Below are positions 41,418 to 50,234 of a stretch of 50,234 nt of DNA, one piece after another. Every line of letters begins with the position of its first letter. The stretch's first letter is position 1. Source of the stretch: Woeseiaceae bacterium. Lineage in GTDB: Bacteria > Pseudomonadota > Gammaproteobacteria > Steroidobacterales > Woeseiaceae. The notes beneath the pieces were generated by a model, which worked only from the letters and a program-made list of their open reading frames with translations, was not told the DNA's origin and did not search any database. The translations under genes and the position numbers were made by a program. The stretch is from assembly GCA_030066625.1 (NCBI GenBank), contig JASJBG010000010.1, forward strand, positions 1-50,234, given 5' to 3'.

Positions 41418-44400
41418 TTGAACCTCATCCGAACATTGCTTGCGACCGTCGCCCTTTTCGCGACAGGCCTCGCCGTCGGCGACGAGACGTCCGTGCTTCG
41501 TGACGCCGGTCCGGGCGTCGGCATCCGCCTAGCCGGCGGCGACGATCCGGCTGCGCGCAAGACCTACATCGTACGCCTGCGCGAACCCGCGGCGGCGGCG
41601 GCATTCTCGAGACTCGCAGTCGCGGCGCCGAAGCCGGCCGGAGAACGCGCAACCCGCTTCGACAAATCGAGCGCCTTCGCGCAGGGCTATACCGAGAAGC
41701 TCCGCGAGGAGCAGGAGCGCGTGCTCGCCATCGCCGGGCCCGACGCCGAAAAGATCTACAGCTATACCTACGGTCTCAACGGGTTCGCGGCGCGGATGAC
41801 GCCGGCGGAGGCCCACAAGCTCGAGGCACGTGACGAGGTCCTTGGCATCTGGGAAGACGAGATCCGACCGCTGACAACGAATTTCTCGGCCGAGTTTCTC
41901 GACCTGTTCGACAACACCAACGGCATCCGCGGTGACTACACGGGCGAGGACGTGATCATTGCGTTCATCGACTCGGGAATCTATCCCGAGCATCCGGCGC
42001 TGACCGACACGCAGGAGGCCGACCGGCCGCGCACCTGCCGCAGCAGCTGGGGCAGGAGCTCACTGCTCGGCCGCTGGCTGTGTCGTCGTTACAACCGTGC
42101 CGAGGACAAGCTCGTCTACGAGCCGCCCGAGGAGTGGAACGGCATCTGCGAGGCCGGCGAACAGTTCGAGGAGACGGCCTGCAACAACAAGCTTGTCGGC
42201 GCACGCTGGTTCATCGCTGGTGCCGAGGCCGGCGGCGCGATCGACGCCGGCGAGTTCCGTTCGGCGCGTGACGTCGATGGTCATGGCACGCATACGGCAA
42301 CCACGGCAGCCGGCAATCGCGTCGATGCGTCGATCTTCGGAACGCGCATCGGCACCGTCGAAGGCATCGCGCCGCGCGCCCGGGTGGCCGCTTACAAGGC
42401 CTGCTGGCTGCGTCCCGGCGAACAGCGTGCGTCGTGCAATACGTCTGATCTTGCAGCGGCCGTCGATGCGGCGGTCGCCGACGGTGTCGACATCATCAAC
42501 TATTCCGTCGGCAGCAGCCTGACGACGGTCACGGCGCCGGACGATATCGCGCTGCTTGCGGCGACCAAGGCGGGCGTGCTGTCGATCGTGTCCGCCGGCA
42601 ACGACGGCCCGAACCTGACCACGATCGGCTCGCCGGCCGGCGGGCCATGGTCGATGACGGTCGGCGCATCGTCACGCGACGGCGAGACCTCTCTGGAGGC
42701 CATGCAGATCAACTCGCCGCCCGACATTGCCGGCAAGTACGCGAGCCGCGAAGCCAGCTTCACGCCGGCGCTTGCCGACCGCGACCCGATCGAAGCGTCC
42801 CTGGTACTCGCGGACGACGACGACACGTCGTTGACCGACGGCGGTGACGGCACGACGTCGGACGCCTGCCAGGCGCTTGTGAATACGACCGAGATGGACG
42901 GCAACATCGCGCTCATCCAGCGCGGTGGCTGCGACTTCGATATCAAGGTCGCCAACGCGGAGGACGCAGGGGCAGTTGCAGCGGTTGTCTACAACATCGC
43001 GGGCGAGCCCTTCGTCATGAACGGTGCCACGGACCTGTCGGACATTCCCGCGATCATGGTGGGCGGCGCCGACGGCGAGCTGTTCATCGAGGAGCTCGAT
43101 GCCGGCAATGACGTCGAGGCCGTGCTCGACAAGGGTTTCTTCCTGAACGAGCCCGAGGACGGCAACCTGATGGCGACGTTTTCGTCCCGCGGACCGGGCC
43201 CCGTCCGCTCGATCCTGAAGCCGGATGTCACCGCACCGGGCGTCAGGATTCTCGCCGGCATCACGCCGGACGCCGTCAACTCCACGCCGGGCGAACAATT
43301 CGGCTACCTGAGCGGCACGTCGATGTCGGCGCCACACGTAGCAGGCTCCGCGGCGCTGCTGCGCCAGGCGCATCCCGGCTGGAGCCCCGCGGCGATCAAG
43401 TCGGCGCTCATGACCACGGCACGCCAGTCGATCACCAGGGACGACGGTGAGACGGATGCGAACCCGTTCGACTTCGGCGCCGGACACATCGTGCCGAACG
43501 CGGCCGTATCGCCGGGGCTGGTCTACGATGCCAGCGACGACGACTACGACGCATTCGCCTGCGGTGCCGGTATCGATTCGATCGTCTCTGCCGAGCGCTG
43601 TGACGAGCTCGAGACGGGCGGCGCGTCCTTCCTGGCGCGCGATCTCAACCAGCCATCGATCGCCGTTGCGCGACTGTCGAGCAGCGAGACCGTTTCGCGC
43701 CGCGTCACGAACGTGAGCGACGACGCGGCAAACTACTCCGTGGGCATCGAGCCGCCGATCGGTATTGCCGTCGCCGTCAACCCGCCCGCGCTTTCGCTCG
43801 GCCCCGGCGAGTCCGCGAGCTACGACGTGACGTTTACGTACCAGTCGGGGCAGCTGGACACGTGGCGGTTCGGCGCGGTGACCTGGTCGGATGACGAGAC
43901 GGATGTCCGCAGCCCGCTGGCGATCAAGCCCGTGACGCTAACGGCGCCGCTCGAGATCACGAGCTTTGGCGGGACCGGCAGCGTCGACTTTTCGGTCGAG
44001 TTCGGCTACTCGGGTACCTACGCCGCGCGCGTCCACGGATTGAGACTGCCGTCGATCATCGACGGCTTCGTCGACAACGATCCCACCAAGACCTTTTCCT
44101 TCCGCGCCGTGGATGGCGTGACTTCACACTTGGTCGACGTGCCGGCTGACCAGCTTTACCTTCGCTTCGCTACCTTCGACGCGCTGACCGACGGCGACGA
44201 CGACCTCGACATGTACGTCTACTTCTGCGCCGACAACGTCAACTGCACGCTGGTGGACCAGAGCGGCGGCCCGACCGCGCAGGAAAGAGTCGACCTGTTC
44301 CGGCCGGCCGCGGGACGTTATGCCGTACTGATTCACGGTTTCGAGACGGACGAGGTCGCCGGCGGGCCGGGGTCGAACTACCAGCTTCTGGCGTGGTCTT

Positions 44401-44585
44401 TCGGCGAGCTCGACGATCAGGGCAACATGAGCGTGTCCGGTCCGGCATTCGTCAATCCCGGCACGACGGAAACGGTCACGGTGAACTGGACCGACCTGTT
44501 ATCGAACGCGATCTACTTCGGCGGCATATCCCACAACACGCCGTTCGGCCTTTCCGCACTGACGCTCATCACGATCGGCAACTAG
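41418..44585 (+). CDS. Large secreted subtilisin-like serine protease (S8), PA-domain type
   Basis: The 1055-residue exported protease starts with a signal peptide (MNLIRTLLATVALFATGLAV) and an I9-like propeptide. The S8 domain has the triad Asp185 (AFIDSGIYPEHP), His289 (DVDGHGTHTA) and Ser635 (SGTSMSAPH), and a protease-associated domain is inserted between His and Ser at about residues 455-570, an arrangement also seen in plant-type subtilases. The last ~340 residues are beta-rich, with a fibronectin-III-like domain and a pre-peptidase-like domain (DDLDMYVYFC). The TTG at 41418 is the only start in frame near the signal, and GGAG lies only 2 bases before it. Confidence 0.92.
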   Translation: MNLIRTLLATVALFATGLAVGDETSVLRDAGPGVGIRLAGGDDPAARKTYIVRLREPAAAAAFSRLAVAAPKPAGERATRFDKSSAFAQGYTEKLREEQERVLAIAGPDAEKIYSYTYGLNGFAARMTPAEAHKLEARDEVLGIWEDEIRPLTTNFSAEFLDLFDNTNGIRGDYTGEDVIIAFIDSGIYPEHPALTDTQEADRPRTCRSSWGRSSLLGRWLCRRYNRAEDKLVYEPPEEWNGICEAGEQFEETACNNKLVGARWFIAGAEAGGAIDAGEFRSARDVDGHGTHTATTAAGNRVDASIFGTRIGTVEGIAPRARVAAYKACWLRPGEQRASCNTSDLAAAVDAAVADGVDIINYSVGSSLTTVTAPDDIALLAATKAGVLSIVSAGNDGPNLTTIGSPAGGPWSMTVGASSRDGETSLEAMQINSPPDIAGKYASREASFTPALADRDPIEASLVLADDDDTSLTDGGDGTTSDACQALVNTTEMDGNIALIQRGGCDFDIKVANAEDAGAVAAVVYNIAGEPFVMNGATDLSDIPAIMVGGADGELFIEELDAGNDVEAVLDKGFFLNEPEDGNLMATFSSRGPGPVRSILKPDVTAPGVRILAGITPDAVNSTPGEQFGYLSGTSMSAPHVAGSAALLRQAHPGWSPAAIKSALMTTARQSITRDDGETDANPFDFGAGHIVPNAAVSPGLVYDASDDDYDAFACGAGIDSIVSAERCDELETGGASFLARDLNQPSIAVARLSSSETVSRRVTNVSDDAANYSVGIEPPIGIAVAVNPPALSLGPGESASYDVTFTYQSGQLDTWRFGAVTWSDDETDVRSPLAIKPVTLTAPLEITSFGGTGSVDFSVEFGYSGTYAARVHGLRLPSIIDGFVDNDPTKTFSFRAVDGVTSHLVDVPADQLYLRFATFDALTDGDDDLDMYVYFCADNVNCTLVDQSGGPTAQERVDLFRPAAGRYAVLIHGFETDEVAGGPGSNYQLLAWSFGELDDQGNMSVSGPAFVNPGTTETVTVNWTDLLSNAIYFGGISHNTPFGLSALTLITIGN

Positions 44586-45178: not shown

Positions 45179-45757
45179 ATGGGCGTATTCGAATACATCG
45201 GGGTGCTGGTGTCGGTCATCATGGGCTTAGGGATAACCCATCTCGCGGTGGGTGCGAGCAAGCTCATCCAGAACCGCGCAACGACCAAGGCCTGTGTGCC
45301 GCATGCGCTCTGGACCTTCAACATACTGCTCTACATCCTCGTGATCTGGTGGAGCATGTTCTGGTGGAGCGGGCTCGAGGACTGGACGGCGTTTCACTAT
45401 CTCGGCATTACCTTGTATGCCATCGTGTTGTTCCTGCTGTCGGCGATGCTGTACCCCTACGACATGCCGAGCGATATCGATATCGAAGCGTATTTCTTCC
45501 GCAATCGGCGCTGGTTCTTCTCGCTGATGATTGCCGCGTGGCTGCTGGATATACCGGAAACGCTCGGCAAGGAGATCGAAGGCTTACGGCCAGTGCCGCC
45601 TCAGTATTACGTGTTCGTGAGCTCGATGATCGTTCTGGCCATCGTAGGCATGCTGACCTCCAACCGCAGGGTGCACACGGCGCTGCCCCTCGCCTGGCTG
45701 ATGCTGCTCGGAAGTTTCCTGAGCATGTCGGTCGTCAGCGTTATCGACTCGCCCTGA
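45179..45757 (+). CDS. Five- or six-helix membrane protein of unknown function
   Basis: A 192-residue membrane protein with about six hydrophobic segments. It begins MGVFEYIGVLVSVIMGLGIT, and the tryptophan-rich WWSMFWWSGLEDW and a RNRRWFF element stand out. No catalytic or transport motif is visible. It is divergent from the small membrane protein gene and converges with tag (21 bases). I see no functional link with its neighbours. Confidence 0.75.
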   Translation: MGVFEYIGVLVSVIMGLGITHLAVGASKLIQNRATTKACVPHALWTFNILLYILVIWWSMFWWSGLEDWTAFHYLGITLYAIVLFLLSAMLYPYDMPSDIDIEAYFFRNRRWFFSLMIAAWLLDIPETLGKEIEGLRPVPPQYYVFVSSMIVLAIVGMLTSNRRVHTALPLAWLMLLGSFLSMSVVSVIDSP

Positions 45758-45778
45758 TCCGACAAGATTCGGGACCGA

Positions 45779-46366
45779 CTACTTCCCGAGCGCGGCGCAG
45801 GGCTTGTAGCGAAAGCAGCTCGTCACGTGATCGTTGACGAGACCCGTTGCCTGCATGTGCGCGTACATGATCGTCGAGCCGACGAAGCGGAAGCCGCGCT
45901 TCTTCAGGTCTTTCGACAGCGCATCGGACTCGGCTGAGGTGGCCGGCACCTCGCTATCTTTCTTGAAACGATTCTGGATCGGCTTGCCGTCGACGAAACC
46001 CCAGATGTAATCGCTGAAGGTACCGAACTCCTTCTGGACCGCGAGGAATGCCTTCGCGTTGCTGACGGTCGATTCCACCTTGAGGCGGTTGCGCACGATC
46101 GACGGATCAGTCAGCAGTTTTTCGACACGCTTCTTCGTGAATCGCGCCACCTTCTCCGGATCGAATTCGGCAAACGCCTTTCGGTAGCCTTCGCGCTTGT
46201 TCAGGATCGTCGACCAGCTCAAGCCCGCCTGGGCGCCTTCGAGAATCAGGAACTCGAACTGCACCCGGTCGTCATGCACGGGCACGCCCCATTCCTTGTC
46301 GTGGTATTCGATGTAGTCGAGGCTGACGCCCTCGGCCCATTTGCAACGGGTGACCGCTTTCGGCAT
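45779..46366 (-). CDS. tag: DNA-3-methyladenine glycosylase I
   Basis: The 195-residue base-excision enzyme removes 3-methyladenine from alkylated DNA. It starts with the family opening RCKWAEG (Cys8), then EYHDKEWG (His22), and ends with NDHVTSCF (His180, Cys184); these are the four zinc ligands. The helix-hairpin-helix region lies in between. Family length is about 185-195 residues. It is separated from the upstream HvfA-like gene by a strong terminator. Confidence 0.95.
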   Translation of the reverse strand: MPKAVTRCKWAEGVSLDYIEYHDKEWGVPVHDDRVQFEFLILEGAQAGLSWSTILNKREGYRKAFAEFDPEKVARFTKKRVEKLLTDPSIVRNRLKVESTVSNAKAFLAVQKEFGTFSDYIWGFVDGKPIQNRFKKDSEVPATSAESDALSKDLKKRGFRFVGSTIMYAHMQATGLVNDHVTSCFRYKPCAALGK

Positions 46367-46450
46367 GTCTCAAGTACCGTTCGATTCCGGGAGCGAAATC
46401 CTAGCAGCGGAGGGCATGTGCAGACAGCCCCGTTTCCGGTGTCCGCATAC

Positions 46451-46478
46451 AAAAAGGCCCGCGCAGTTTGCGCGGGCC
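46451..46478 (-). terminator. Intrinsic terminator after the HvfA-like gene
   Basis: On the minus strand, GGCCCGCGC and GCGCGGGCC (46470-46478 and 46456-46464 on the plus strand) form a 9-bp GC-rich stem with a 5-base loop and are followed by TTTTT (46451-46455). It closes the sigma / anti-sigma / HvfA-like transcript 45 bases after the last stop and insulates tag. Confidence 0.85.
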
Positions 46479-46522
46479 CTTTGTTCGAAGGCTGTGAAGC
46501 CTGCGTCAGTTTGCTCTGCTAA

Positions 46523-46894
46523 TTAAGCTGCACCGCCGCAAGAACCTTCACCGCACTTGCCTTCGGCGTCTTTGTCACCGCCGCAAGAGCCTTCACCTTC
46601 CTTCTTGTCACCGCCGCAGGAACCTTCACCGCAAGCGCCTTCGCCGCCCTTGCCTTCGGTGTCACCGCCACAGGAACCTTCGCCACAAGAGCCTTCGCCG
46701 CCCTTGCCTTTGCCTTCCTTGTCGCCGCCACAAGAGCCTTCGCCGTGACCGCCCAGCATGTAGCCGGCCGACAGAGCGGACATCTCGAACGGGTTATCAG
46801 CGCCTTCAGCGCTTGCAACACTGCCGATCGCAAACGAGCTAGCGAGTGCAGCACCAACAGCCAGAGCAACAGGCTTTACAACTTTCTTTGACAT
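46523..46894 (-). CDS. HvfA-like exported precursor with eight EGxCG motifs
   Basis: A 123-residue protein. The first ~30 residues are a signal peptide (MSKKVVKPVALAVGAALASS), followed by NPFEMSALSAGYML, an element also found in HvfA-type precursors. The rest (from residue ~49) is low-complexity: eight Glu-Gly-Ser/Ala/Lys-Cys-Gly motifs with Cys at 55, 70, 75, 88, 93, 104, 114 and 119, and no other cysteines. In Haemophilus HvfA, EGKCG cysteines are reported to be modified to oxazolone/thioamide copper ligands by an MNIO (DUF692) enzyme with a partner. No such enzyme is in this window. Shine-Dalgarno TAGGAGAG lies 7-8 bases before the ATG. Confidence 0.8.
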   Translation of the reverse strand: MSKKVVKPVALAVGAALASSFAIGSVASAEGADNPFEMSALSAGYMLGGHGEGSCGGDKEGKGKGGEGSCGEGSCGGDTEGKGGEGACGEGSCGGDKKEGEGSCGGDKDAEGKCGEGSCGGAA

Positions 46895-46956
46895 CGTTTT
46901 CTCTCCTACAGGTTTTTCCCCGTTAACCAGGGATCAATTGATCAGTGCGCTTGTAA

Positions 46957-47679
46957 TTAGGTACTCCACGCGACTGAATCTACTACTTTCTCTTCAATCC
47001 TTTGCAGGTTTTCCCCTTCCTCGCCGATGATGGCGATGCTGCCGTCCCCGACCGGCAGGAGAATACCGTTGATCGAGTCGCCGCTAATCGACTGCGGCCC
47101 CTCGATGGGCTGTTCCGGCATTAGCAAGATCGTAACCGGACCGCGCTCCCCCTGTATGACAAGATGCGGGACTTCCGTGCCGTTTATCACACAGGTCTGA
47201 GCATAAGTGATGAGACCCGCGCTGTGGTCAAGGGTTGCAATTGACGCGGGCATTACGCGCGCCAGGCGGCGATCGGGGACCGGCTTGTCAGTCACGCGCA
47301 GCGCGTAAGGCTCATGATCGAGGTGAGCAATGATCTGCTCCGCAAGCGGCGCATCCGAAACCTCGCTCGACAGCATGTTGAATCCGATGACCGCTGCAAA
47401 CGTCGCTGCGGCAGCCATGGCCAGCCAGCCAGGCACACCGAGCCGTCGACTCGCGAGCGTCGTTACATTGCTGGAATCGATCTCGGGCAGCTCAGGCATG
47501 TTCAGCTCGGGCACGCTCAGACTCATGGCCGAGGCGATCTGGCGATCGAATGCCTGCATCTCGGCGCGGTAGGCCTGGCACTCGCTGCAGGTCGCAAGCA
47601 GCTCGCCGCCGCCTTCGTAGGACGGGTCTGCCGTTATTGCCTTTTTGTATTCGTCACGCGTCATCATGTTCTTTGTCAC
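46957..47679 (-). CDS. Membrane anti-sigma factor (DUF3379)
   Basis: A 240-residue protein whose N-terminal cytosolic part carries CSECQAYRAEM, a CxxC like the zinc anti-sigma motif, followed by one membrane helix near residues 84-104 (WLAMAAAATFAAVIGFNM) and a beta-rich periplasmic domain containing LITYAQTCVINGTEVPHLV. This is the DUF3379 layout. It starts with a GTG at 47679, 5 bases after the sigma gene stop; an ATG at 47667 is an alternative. It lies 62 bases upstream of the HvfA-like gene, so it may sense stress that the peptide counters (inference). Confidence 0.88.
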   Translation of the reverse strand: MTKNMMTRDEYKKAITADPSYEGGGELLATCSECQAYRAEMQAFDRQIASAMSLSVPELNMPELPEIDSSNVTTLASRRLGVPGWLAMAAAATFAAVIGFNMLSSEVSDAPLAEQIIAHLDHEPYALRVTDKPVPDRRLARVMPASIATLDHSAGLITYAQTCVINGTEVPHLVIQGERGPVTILLMPEQPIEGPQSISGDSINGILLPVGDGSIAIIGEEGENLQRIEEKVVDSVAWST

Positions 47680-47684
47680 CGTCG

Positions 47685-48200
47685 CTACCCGGCCTCCTCG
47701 GCCTGGACCGACTCCTTGAGCTTCAACCGGGCCCGGTGCAGGCGCGTCAGCACCGCACCCTGCTTGAGCCCCATCAGCTCGGCAATCTCGTTCGTGCTGT
47801 AGCCCATCAGGACCTGGAGCACGAGCGGTTCTCTGTAATCGTCATCGAGCTCGTAGATCGACTCCCGCAAGGCTTCGAGCTGCTCGTCCGGAGCCTCGGC
47901 CAACAACGCCTCCTGCGAAGGAGTGAGGTTGTCGACGTCGACGGTCTCCAGTCGGCGGCGCTCGAAATACCGAGCGTTTTCGCGTCTGACGATCGTCAGC
48001 AGCCATTGCTTGGCGGCTGCATCCTCGCGTAACGCATCGAGCGATTTCCATGCCCGGAGCAGCGCCTCCTGAACGACGTCCTCGGCGATCGCCTTGTCGC
48101 GACTCAGCCACGCTGCGTAGCGATACATATCCTGGTGATACACGCCTACCAGCTGGTCGAATCGTCGCCGCCGGTCAGAGCCGACACTGCTGCTGTTCAT
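47685..48200 (-). CDS. ECF-type RNA polymerase sigma factor
   Basis: The 171-residue sigma factor has region 2 (YHQDMYRYAAWLSRDKAIAE, then VVQEALLRAWKSL) and region 4 (LQVLMGYSTNEIAELMGLKQ, GAVLTRLHRARLKLKE). It is followed by the DUF3379 anti-sigma gene, as in many gammaproteobacteria. On the minus strand upstream, GAAACCTGAC resembles an ECF -35 element (complement near 48241-48250), which could allow autoregulation; the -10 is not clear. It likely controls the operon with the HvfA-like gene. Confidence 0.92.
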   Translation of the reverse strand: MNSSSVGSDRRRRFDQLVGVYHQDMYRYAAWLSRDKAIAEDVVQEALLRAWKSLDALREDAAAKQWLLTIVRRENARYFERRRLETVDVDNLTPSQEALLAEAPDEQLEALRESIYELDDDYREPLVLQVLMGYSTNEIAELMGLKQGAVLTRLHRARLKLKESVQAEEAG

Positions 48201-48258
48201 TCGAGATGACCCGCCCCATGTGATTTTTATTACCCCGATTGTCAGGTTTCGGCGCTAA

Positions 48259-49335
<1,077 letters not shown>

Positions 49336-49464
49336 TCATAAGGACGCAGTGGGTATACTGCGGCGAATGGCGGTACAGCCGCCATCGAACAACAAGCATT
49401 GCCGGCTTGAACCGCCGCAGCACAGGCAAGGCCCGGGTATCCGCAGCAAGGGGCACCAAGCAGC

Positions 49465-50234
49465 ATGGCCACTAATCCCAACGCCATCGATCGCTACGGC
49501 GTGATCGGCTACCCCATCTCCCACAGCCGCTCGCCCGTGATCCACAAGCTGTTTGCCTACCAGACCGGGCAGAACATGCGCTACGAAATGCTCCAGGTCG
49601 CGCCCAAGAAGCTCGAGACCATGGTCCGACAGTTCCAGCGCACCGGCGGCAAGGGACTCAATGTCACGGCACCGCACAAAGTCGAGGTCGCGAAGCTCAC
49701 CGACGCGATGAGCGAACGCGCCCGGGAGGCCGGCGCTGTCAACACGCTCGTGTTCCGGGACAAGGAAATCTATGGTGACAACACCGACGGCATCGGCCTC
49801 GTTCGCGACCTGGTCACCAACCTGGGCCTGTCACTCAAGGGCGCGGCGATCCTGATCCTGGGCGCCGGTGGCGCCACGCGCGGGATCGTCGGCCCGCTAC
49901 TCGACCTCGAGCCGAAGCGTCTCGTCGTGGCGAACCGCACGGAGAGCAAGGCGGAGATCATCGCCGATCACTTCGCCCGGCACGGGCCGGTCGAGAGCTG
50001 TGGCTTCGACGCCATCGACGAAGAAGAAGAGTGGCAGCTAGTGATTAACTCCACGTCGGCTGGCTACAAGGGCGAGGCAGTGCCGTTCCCGCCCTCGATC
50101 GTCTCGAAGGACTCGTTTTGCTACGACCTTGCCTACGGTCTCAAGCTCACGCCGTTTTGTGCCTGGGCGCGTGAGCAGGGCGCGGGTCGCGTTGCGATGG
50201 GCTGGGGCATGCTCGTCGAACAGGCTGCCGAATC
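49465..50234 (+). CDS. aroE: Shikimate dehydrogenase, partial (runs off the window)
   Basis: The first 256 codons of AroE, which reduces 3-dehydroshikimate with NADPH in aromatic amino-acid synthesis. It starts MATNPNAIDRYGVIGYPISH with the substrate-binding SRS (residues 21-23), the catalytic Lys72 in NVTAPHKVEV, Asn93, and Asp108 in GDNTDGIGL; the NADP-binding glycine loop is GAGGAT (residues 133-138). The frame is open to the last base, and the family length (~270-290 residues) implies only a short piece is missing. It is 129 bases after hemB. Confidence 0.96.
   Translation, partial: MATNPNAIDRYGVIGYPISHSRSPVIHKLFAYQTGQNMRYEMLQVAPKKLETMVRQFQRTGGKGLNVTAPHKVEVAKLTDAMSERAREAGAVNTLVFRDKEIYGDNTDGIGLVRDLVTNLGLSLKGAAILILGAGGATRGIVGPLLDLEPKRLVVANRTESKAEIIADHFARHGPVESCGFDAIDEEEEWQLVINSTSAGYKGEAVPFPPSIVSKDSFCYDLAYGLKLTPFCAWAREQGAGRVAMGWGMLVEQAAE

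Follow-up and report, generated by a model that had tools for sequence, protein, structure and literature searches.

Organization of the locus

We analyzed a DNA stretch of 50,234 nucleotides from a Woeseiaceae bacterium (contig JASJBG010000010.1, here C18), which is referred to as the window. It belongs to a metagenome-assembled genome (MAG) of 3.88 Mb in 236 contigs that is 89.5% complete, and the host family consists of marine bacteria. The subject of this report is a minus-strand locus in which the genes for an extracytoplasmic function (ECF) sigma factor and a putative membrane anti-sigma factor of the DUF3379 type are followed by the gene for an EGxCG-rich peptide precursor. These three genes had been named in an earlier note from the letters of the DNA, and open reading frames (ORFs) and profile matches confirmed them at the same places. 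The sigma factor (171 residues, 47685..48200, minus strand) contains Sigma70_r2 and r4_2 and matches NF009170/PRK12517 with 208.1 bits (cut-off 197). It lies directly 5' of the DUF3379 protein gene (240 residues, 46957..47679, minus strand; PF11859, 109.7 bits with a cut-off of 33.2), and these two matches bear out the proposed sigma/anti-sigma unit. The third gene (123 residues, 46523..46894, minus strand) encodes a member of the HvfA family (EGxCG, captophorin-type) that matches NF050137 with 28.8 bits (cut-off 19.5).

A predicted ECF promoter, GTAATAAAAATCACATGGGGCGGGTC (GTAATA-N16-GGTC), is located at 48208..48233 on the minus strand, 7 nt ahead of the ATG of the sigma gene. On the same strand, the sigma, DUF3379, and precursor genes are followed by an intrinsic-terminator-like stem of 10 pairs (46456..46478, no strand assigned) and then by the methyladenine glycosylase gene; the minus-strand 3' side of the stem reads TTTTTGTA and includes a T run. 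A scan for terminator-like stems gave three such sites (2.2 expected in shuffles) and listed this one on the plus strand only. The locus is flanked by tag (methyladenine glycosylase, 45779-46366) on one side and by hemB/aroE (48262-50232, named by eye) on the other. Rfam searches of the window at the gathering threshold and tRNA searches gave no match, and a sigma-70 promoter scan of 45700-48500 gave no site. Farther away, at 41418-44585, is an ORF for a large exported S8-type serine protease (1055 residues, named by eye).

Conservation of the gene order

Among 196 genomes sampled from the order, DUF3379 matched 75, NF050137 70, and MNIO (the modification enzyme family) 143. The 76 DUF3379 loci that were read represent 75 genomes (G167 was read twice), and the labels f1, f6, f10, and so on denote families within these 75 genomes. 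An intact ECF sigma frame was found upstream on the same strand in 75/76 loci, the sigma frame being split at L053; at L140, the end of the contig truncates DUF3379. In 54 loci, corresponding to 54 of the 75 genomes, DUF3379 is immediately followed on the same strand by a gene with three or more EGxCG-like motifs. By family, the precursor adjoins DUF3379 in 34/36 genomes of f1 and in 20/21 of seven further families. The two f1 exceptions are G189, which is cut by a contig end, and G084, which has neither an MNIO nor an NF050137 match. The DUF3379-precursor gap is 38-102 bp in 50 of the 54 loci and 331-338 bp in the other four.

A second, overlapping set of named loci was collected. A query with the DUF3379 protein by itself gave no relatives, and an alignment of closer DUF3379 relatives, centered on Woeseiaceae, was used instead. 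It found 69 loci in MAGs labelled Woeseiaceae, Woeseia sp., Gammaproteobacteria, Proteobacteria, or Chromatiales, and the precursor was downstream in all 67 informative ones. Both surveys indicate that the ECF-DUF3379-EGxCG order is conserved, and the suggestion that EGxCG genes of relatives might never occur with the sigma pair therefore fails.

Several f6 loci, L134 among them, have tag, DUF3379, sigma, and aroE in the same succession as the window and lack a precursor (names by eye). Because these loci retain the tag-DUF3379-sigma-aroE order, the gain or loss of the precursor took place at a fixed site. Some f6 loci also have long ORFs akin to the S8-type protease ORF of the window in the vicinity of the sigma pair. 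In 5 of 12 f10 genomes (G091, G161, G167, G190, and G193), MNIO genes adjoin the sigma pair. A block resembling TTTTCCCTGTATTTAGGTAGGGTTTCCA (minus-strand reading) occupies 48262-48292 in the interval between sigma and hemB and, by eye, is highly conserved across the f1 upstream regions.

The class sample comprised 229 genomes, including G000, G006, and G010; DUF3379 matched 41 of them and NF050137 67. Outside the order, 28 DUF3379 loci were read and a sigma gene was called in 25. Only six of the 28 adjoin an MNIO gene or a precursor, and a class-wide conserved order was rejected. These are G391, with a precursor downstream of the DUF3379 locus, G349, in which the sigma pair is divergent from precursor-MNIO-HvfC-DoxX, and G256, G331, G394, and G396, in which the sigma pair is near an MNIO gene.

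Modification enzymes on a separate contig

As the earlier note had observed, no MNIO, HvfC, or DoxX gene adjoins the window locus. The first of its two suggestions, that the modification enzymes are encoded elsewhere, was borne out. The genome contains exactly one MNIO match (PF05114), which is located on contig C108 beside the only DUF2063/HvfC match and a DoxX gene. Following nth and DUF1841, these genes form one operon encoding HvfB (NF003818, 424.4 bits, cut-off 360), HvfC (NF050145, 293.1 bits, cut-off 142), and HvfX (NF050144, 127.2 bits, cut-off 80). By the NCBIfam equivalog cut-offs, cognate HvfB and HvfC are thus encoded in the same genome as the precursor. No precursor is found beside hvfBCX on C108, and no second NF050137 match exists in the genome up to E = 10. 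The precursor is an orphan by position only.

The separation recurs in relatives. We examined 63 MNIO loci from DUF3379-bearing genomes; this set leaves out the f10 genomes and G035, does not hold all MNIO loci of such genomes, and includes some second, bufferin-type MNIO genes. The arrangement nth-DUF1841-hvfB-hvfC-doxX is complete in 39 of them, while the rest are missing one or more of these calls or run into the end of a contig, and an ORF with at least three precursor motifs was found at none of the 63. Among the 54 genomes with a precursor beside DUF3379, all except G157 have an MNIO match (53/54).

The precursor peptide

The N-terminus of the precursor, read by eye, has a K-rich start, a hydrophobic run, and an ASA-E site, which suggests a probable Sec signal peptide or leader at residues ~1-30 (46805..46894, minus strand). 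It is followed by a conserved NPFEMSALSAGYML stretch. All eight cysteines lie within EGxCG motifs (six EGSCG, one EGACG, and one EGKCG), and this census and the NF050137 match agree with the HvfA-type assignment of the earlier note. When residues 31-123 were shuffled 20,000 times, the maximum was three EGxCG motifs versus eight in the real precursor. The strict HvfA equivalog profile NF050188 is missed (32.4 bits with a cut-off of 95), and judging from these scores the protein is a member of the HvfA family, not an HvfA equivalog. The oxazolone/thioamide chemistry invoked in the note is outdated, as the EGKCG cysteines are now assigned as 5-thiooxazoles (PMC12668002, PMC13419390).

Among the 54 precursors adjoining DUF3379, 53 contain the pattern PF-x(5-9)-[GA]Y[ML], and Gly follows Cys in 472 of 475 cases. 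Before Cys, the 34 precursors of f1 have Ser in 259/305 cases, and the 20 precursors of the other families have Lys in 153/170. By sequence, this is a lineage difference, which we read as a change from Lys to Ser; no discussion of it was found in the available text of the literature consulted. FonBC, the enzyme pair of fontiphorin, accepts Ala, Arg, and Thr before Cys, and in double variants only Gly or Ala was accepted after Cys (PMC12668002). The number of cysteines ranges from 5 to 15 across the 54 precursors and the repeat units are near-identical (e.g., L054, L061, and L112), which suggests rapid expansion of the repeats.

Predicted promoter and candidate regulon

Upstream, the sigma and MNIO genes share one element, GTAATA-N16-GGTC. 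This strict motif, with the exact first element, is distinguished below from a relaxed form with G[TA]AA[TC]A in its place. In the 130 bp ahead of the respective gene start, the motif is present at 59 of the 76 sigma loci of the order (75 genomes) and at 43 of the 63 MNIO loci; the corresponding first-order Markov expectations are 0.02 and 0. Of 65 informative named loci, 64 have the strict form no more than 900 bp upstream of DUF3379. In the 39 MNIO loci with the full hvfBCX order, 35 carry the strict and 37 the relaxed motif. At MNIO-bearing loci from genomes of the order without DUF3379, the motif was absent from all 22 loci (21 genomes; 81,622 bases).

No motif, strict or relaxed, was found between DUF3379 and the precursor in any of the 54 loci, the long gaps of four loci having been scanned whole, and the idea that the precursor has a motif promoter of its own was rejected. 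Sigma, DUF3379, and the precursor probably form one operon, and because the gap lacks a motif the simplest view is that the precursor is transcribed from the sigma promoter. The position of the motif ahead of the sigma gene suggests autoregulation, the predicted promoter being presumably recognized by the sigma factor that it precedes. Since the ATG of the sigma gene begins 7 nt past GGTC, its mRNA may be leaderless.

In the window genome, the motif with spacers of 15-17 has ten sites versus six for a reversed-pattern control. With a spacer of 16, only three exact copies exist, ahead of the sigma gene, hvfB, and the gene for an exported redoxin. As the reversed control gave two sites at this spacer, one chance site would not be surprising, and the redoxin site was therefore tested across the genus. 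The test covered 30 loci in 28 genomes, some of which may be paralogues, and 28 had enough upstream sequence. The strict motif is present in 16/28 and the reversed control in 1/28, while the relaxed form, which was written after the redoxin upstream regions, and with them some of the sites that it counts, had been seen, is present in 25/28. Besides the sites before sigma, hvfB, and redoxin, four relaxed sites in G000 precede dsbC, dsbD, TlpA-like (AhpC-TSA), and DUF1223 genes (Pfam assignments), and the remaining ones lie before other genes or doubtful ORFs or have no readable ORF behind them.

From the sites listed for relatives, we inspected a selection of 40 strict ones with A/T as the seventh base that had not already been set aside as sigma, MNIO, or redoxin sites. 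Downstream of them are four TlpA-like, three DsbD, one DsbC, and one redoxin gene, as well as one gene each for MNIO and DoxX; at three sites no ORF could be read, and 26 precede other or unclear genes. Bufferin-type operons are also preceded by the motif, at 49 bp in G055 (f6) and 56 bp in G090 (f1) before the bufferin gene, at 92 bp in G161 (f10) before the MNIO gene, and, in relaxed form, at 228 bp upstream in G074. Outside the order, the relaxed motif precedes the sigma gene in 8 of the 28 DUF3379 loci.

Some further sites were noted. Among four precursor loci (L143, L144, L150, and L142) without a sigma pair in the stretch read, the motif lies upstream in three, namely the second copies of G030 (relaxed, 133 bp) and G004 (relaxed, 77 bp) and the precursor of G019 (strict, 82 bp), and is absent upstream of that of G078 (L142). 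Strict sites recur before a conserved gene (MKASDLLVECLEEEGIEYIFGVPGEENADFMMSL; by eye a thiamine-pyrophosphate enzyme) at L461, L462, and L468 (G203, G211, and G205) and before three more proteins, exported or membrane-bound by eye, in 2-3 genomes each (L475/L487; L480/L490; L459/L467/L469). G200, whose genome of 1.5 Mb belongs to the same genus, has a strict motif at L493, located 137 bp ahead of where a DoxX (HvfX-like) ORF first starts, and no MNIO match was called behind this site.

The DUF3379 protein

The DUF3379 protein of the window has, by eye, one hydrophobic stretch at residues ~83-103. The zinc-binding anti-sigma (ZAS) set C8/H27/C31/C34 is incomplete in its cytoplasmic part, where the residues are R8, L27, C31, and C34; the Cys/His set is incomplete in 15 of the 75 proteins of the order, including this one and the contig-cut L140. 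H119, E123, C163, and H172 are on the presumed periplasmic side. Of 75 aligned proteins of the order, 74 extend far enough, and all of these have His119, Cys163, and His172; in the class set (window included), the three residues occur in 23, 26, and 24 of 29 rows, respectively. The AlphaFold2 model has a mean pLDDT (predicted local distance difference test) of 72.8 and a pTM (predicted template modeling score) of 0.53. Residues 70-107 are below 50, and the C-terminal domain is modeled at block-mean pLDDT values of ~72-90. A profile search of solved structures gave a single weak match, cochlin (E 0.72), and the C-terminal fold is thus without a named relative in this analysis. The conserved periplasmic cysteines of the Caulobacter anti-sigma factor NrsF are a precedent for periplasmic sensing (PMC3511200), and by analogy we infer such a role for DUF3379. 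A literature search, with subscription papers outside its scope, found no paper on DUF3379 and, judged by title, opening of the abstract, and cited passage, none describing this system.

Interpretation and alternative explanations

We consider it probable that the locus belongs to a split pathway for a captophorin, an HvfA-type ribosomally synthesized and post-translationally modified peptide (RiPP) with 5-thiooxazoles, under a DUF3379-type ECF switch that would also drive periplasmic thiol repair. The regulon prediction drawn from the motif distribution is well supported. From gene order, spacing, and the motif, the window would hold the regulatory half, with sigma, DUF3379, and the precursor co-transcribed as one autoregulated operon. 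The sigma factor is predicted to drive hvfB-hvfC-hvfX in trans, where the same conserved motif is found, as well as motif-bearing periplasmic thiol-redox genes, namely the redoxin gene and, in relatives, tlpA-like, dsbC, and dsbD genes. DUF3379 would hold the sigma factor at the membrane and release it on periplasmic sensing of copper or thiol damage, plausibly through the conserved His119/Cys163/His172. If HvfBC acts as its characterized relatives do, it would turn the EGxCG cysteines into 5-thiooxazoles before export, and the product would buffer periplasmic copper while Dsb and redoxin proteins repair thiols. A broader version is put forward only tentatively: ECF/DUF3379 pairs across Gammaproteobacteria might be dedicated switches for thiooxazole metallophores (EGxCG or DUF2282-bufferin type) and Dsb/redoxin repair, with DUF3379 as a periplasmic copper/thiol sensor using the His-Cys-His site. 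In Woeseiaceae, the operon of this proposed sensor would itself carry the metallophore precursor, whose product may act back on the sensor.

Several observations weigh against this interpretation. No EGxCG gene lies beside the sigma pair in f6 (0/6) or f10 (0/12; 0/18 together), and co-location is rare outside the order. The 24 MNIO loci without the full order carry the strict motif in only eight cases (relaxed, 12), and at least nine MNIO/bufferin loci (e.g., L078, L184, L197, L208, and L215) have no motif before these genes. The relaxed form, written with some of the counted sites in view as mentioned above, has 25 sites in G000 versus 14 for the reversed pattern. Outside the order, it was found upstream of the precursor in 3/20 loci of DUF3379-bearing genomes versus 0/20 of DUF3379-less ones, a contrast too small to lean on. 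Because the MAG is 89.5% complete, further genes for MNIO or precursors may be absent from the assembly. Seven of the eight motifs have Ser or Ala at the position that Lys occupies in characterized substrates, and Ser before Cys is not mentioned for FonBC in the available text (PMC12668002). Lastly, G157 (470 contigs) retains sigma, DUF3379, and the precursor without an MNIO match, and its redoxin gene is not preceded by the motif; this genome may be a case of natural loss, or its assembly may have a gap.

The putative regulon members redoxin, DsbC, DsbD, and TlpA-like protein would also suit a periplasmic oxidative or disulfide-stress response in which the peptide is a thiol or oxidant sink instead of a copper buffer. 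The DoxX/DUF2063/UPF0276 cluster of H. influenzae, which is RpoE2-dependent after HOCl (PMC7907618), points in the same direction. This explanation nevertheless seems rather unlikely. Characterized EGKCG products bind Cu (PMC12668002, PMC13419390), the Caulobacter SigF regulon with its bufferin-type genes is Cu-induced and its loss causes Cu sensitivity (PMC8224329), and E. coli needs dsbC under aerobic copper stress (PMC9040851). Copper and thiol/oxidant signals are hard to separate.

Two other explanations concern the precursor. It might be a neighbor without regulatory meaning, with the GTAATA-N16-GGTC sites belonging to another sigma factor; several f6 loci do have the sigma pair between tag and aroE without an EGxCG gene, and the specificity of the sigma factor for the promoter is predicted here from sequence. 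We regard this as very improbable in view of the order kept in f1, the seven other families, and every informative named locus, the motif preceding the sigma gene itself (the usual sign of autoregulation), and the lack of the motif at all MNIO-bearing loci of DUF3379-less genomes. The second suggestion of the earlier note, a peptide exported unmodified as a Cys-rich metal sponge, is in keeping with the absence of the enzymes from the precursor locus, the departure of seven of eight motifs from EGKCG, and the enzyme-less G157. It is very improbable: HvfB, HvfC, and HvfX are encoded, nearly all genomes with the precursor beside DUF3379 have an MNIO match, and the promoter motif shared by the two operons ties the precursor to hvfBCX and thus disfavors a sponge.

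The split captophorin pathway, if correct, assigns DUF3379-type ECF switches a role that can be tested and explains an apparently orphan RiPP precursor. Through one predicted promoter, it also connects a class of copper-binding RiPPs with the repair of periplasmic disulfides. Searches of MNIO-centered neighborhoods alone overlook such split systems.

Comparison with known systems

A study of a copper surface in a marine setting reported the genus Woeseia as one of the dominant groups there (PMC6917582). In its components, the pathway resembles hvfABCX (oxazolin) of H. influenzae, which comprises an EGxCG precursor, HvfB, HvfC, and a DoxX-type HvfX (PMC13419390). An hvfABCX cluster has the precursor adjacent to MNIO and DUF2063 genes, whereas hvfA is found here in the sigma operon. 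The regulation resembles that by H. influenzae RpoE2/HrsE, an ECF system controlling the DoxX/DUF2063/UPF0276 cluster (hvf in our reading of the gene families) together with the periplasmic repair enzymes MsrAB and MtsZ (PMC7907618). HrsE, however, is a 67-residue cytoplasmic zinc-motif protein, in contrast to the putative membrane protein DUF3379, and the repair genes here are of the Dsb/TlpA/redoxin type.

Fontiphorin (FonABC), which carries 5-thiooxazole (PMC12668002), and bulbicupramide (MmrABC) are likewise derived from EGKCG precursors modified by MNIO with a DUF2063 partner (PMC12668002, PMC12538549). Their genes are clustered and Lys precedes Cys, whereas the loci are split and Ser mostly precedes Cys here. 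A survey of the MNIO landscape described stand-alone EGKCG precursors that, like this one, are unlinked to MNIO genes (PMC12452194). It collected five genes on either side of MNIO; in its available text, sigma genes are named for Buf1 and none for EGKCG clusters, and DUF3379 is absent from the list of relevant domains (PMC12452194).

Caulobacter SigF/NrsF also combines an ECF sigma factor and a membrane anti-sigma factor having conserved periplasmic cysteines with MNIO RiPP operons and periplasmic repair (PMC3511200, PMC8224329). Its regulon, which is induced by copper, includes a methionine sulfoxide reductase system in addition to DUF2282/DUF692 genes (PMC8224329). The SigF promoter, GTAACC-N16-CGAA, has the same N16 spacer and a different -10 element (GGTC here) (PMC3511200, PMC8224329), and neither that promoter nor an NrsF anti-sigma factor was found at our locus. 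NrsF has six predicted transmembrane segments, whereas DUF3379 (PF11859) has one hydrophobic stretch, and the Caulobacter precursor is a DUF2282 bufferin beside MNIO instead of an EGxCG peptide. By analogy, the ECF logic of coupling a metallophore RiPP to periplasmic repair parallels that of Haemophilus RpoE2 and Caulobacter SigF with a different anti-sigma factor. The class of regulator is new, as are the split locus and its conservation, the connection to Dsb proteins, and the change from Lys to Ser within the motif.

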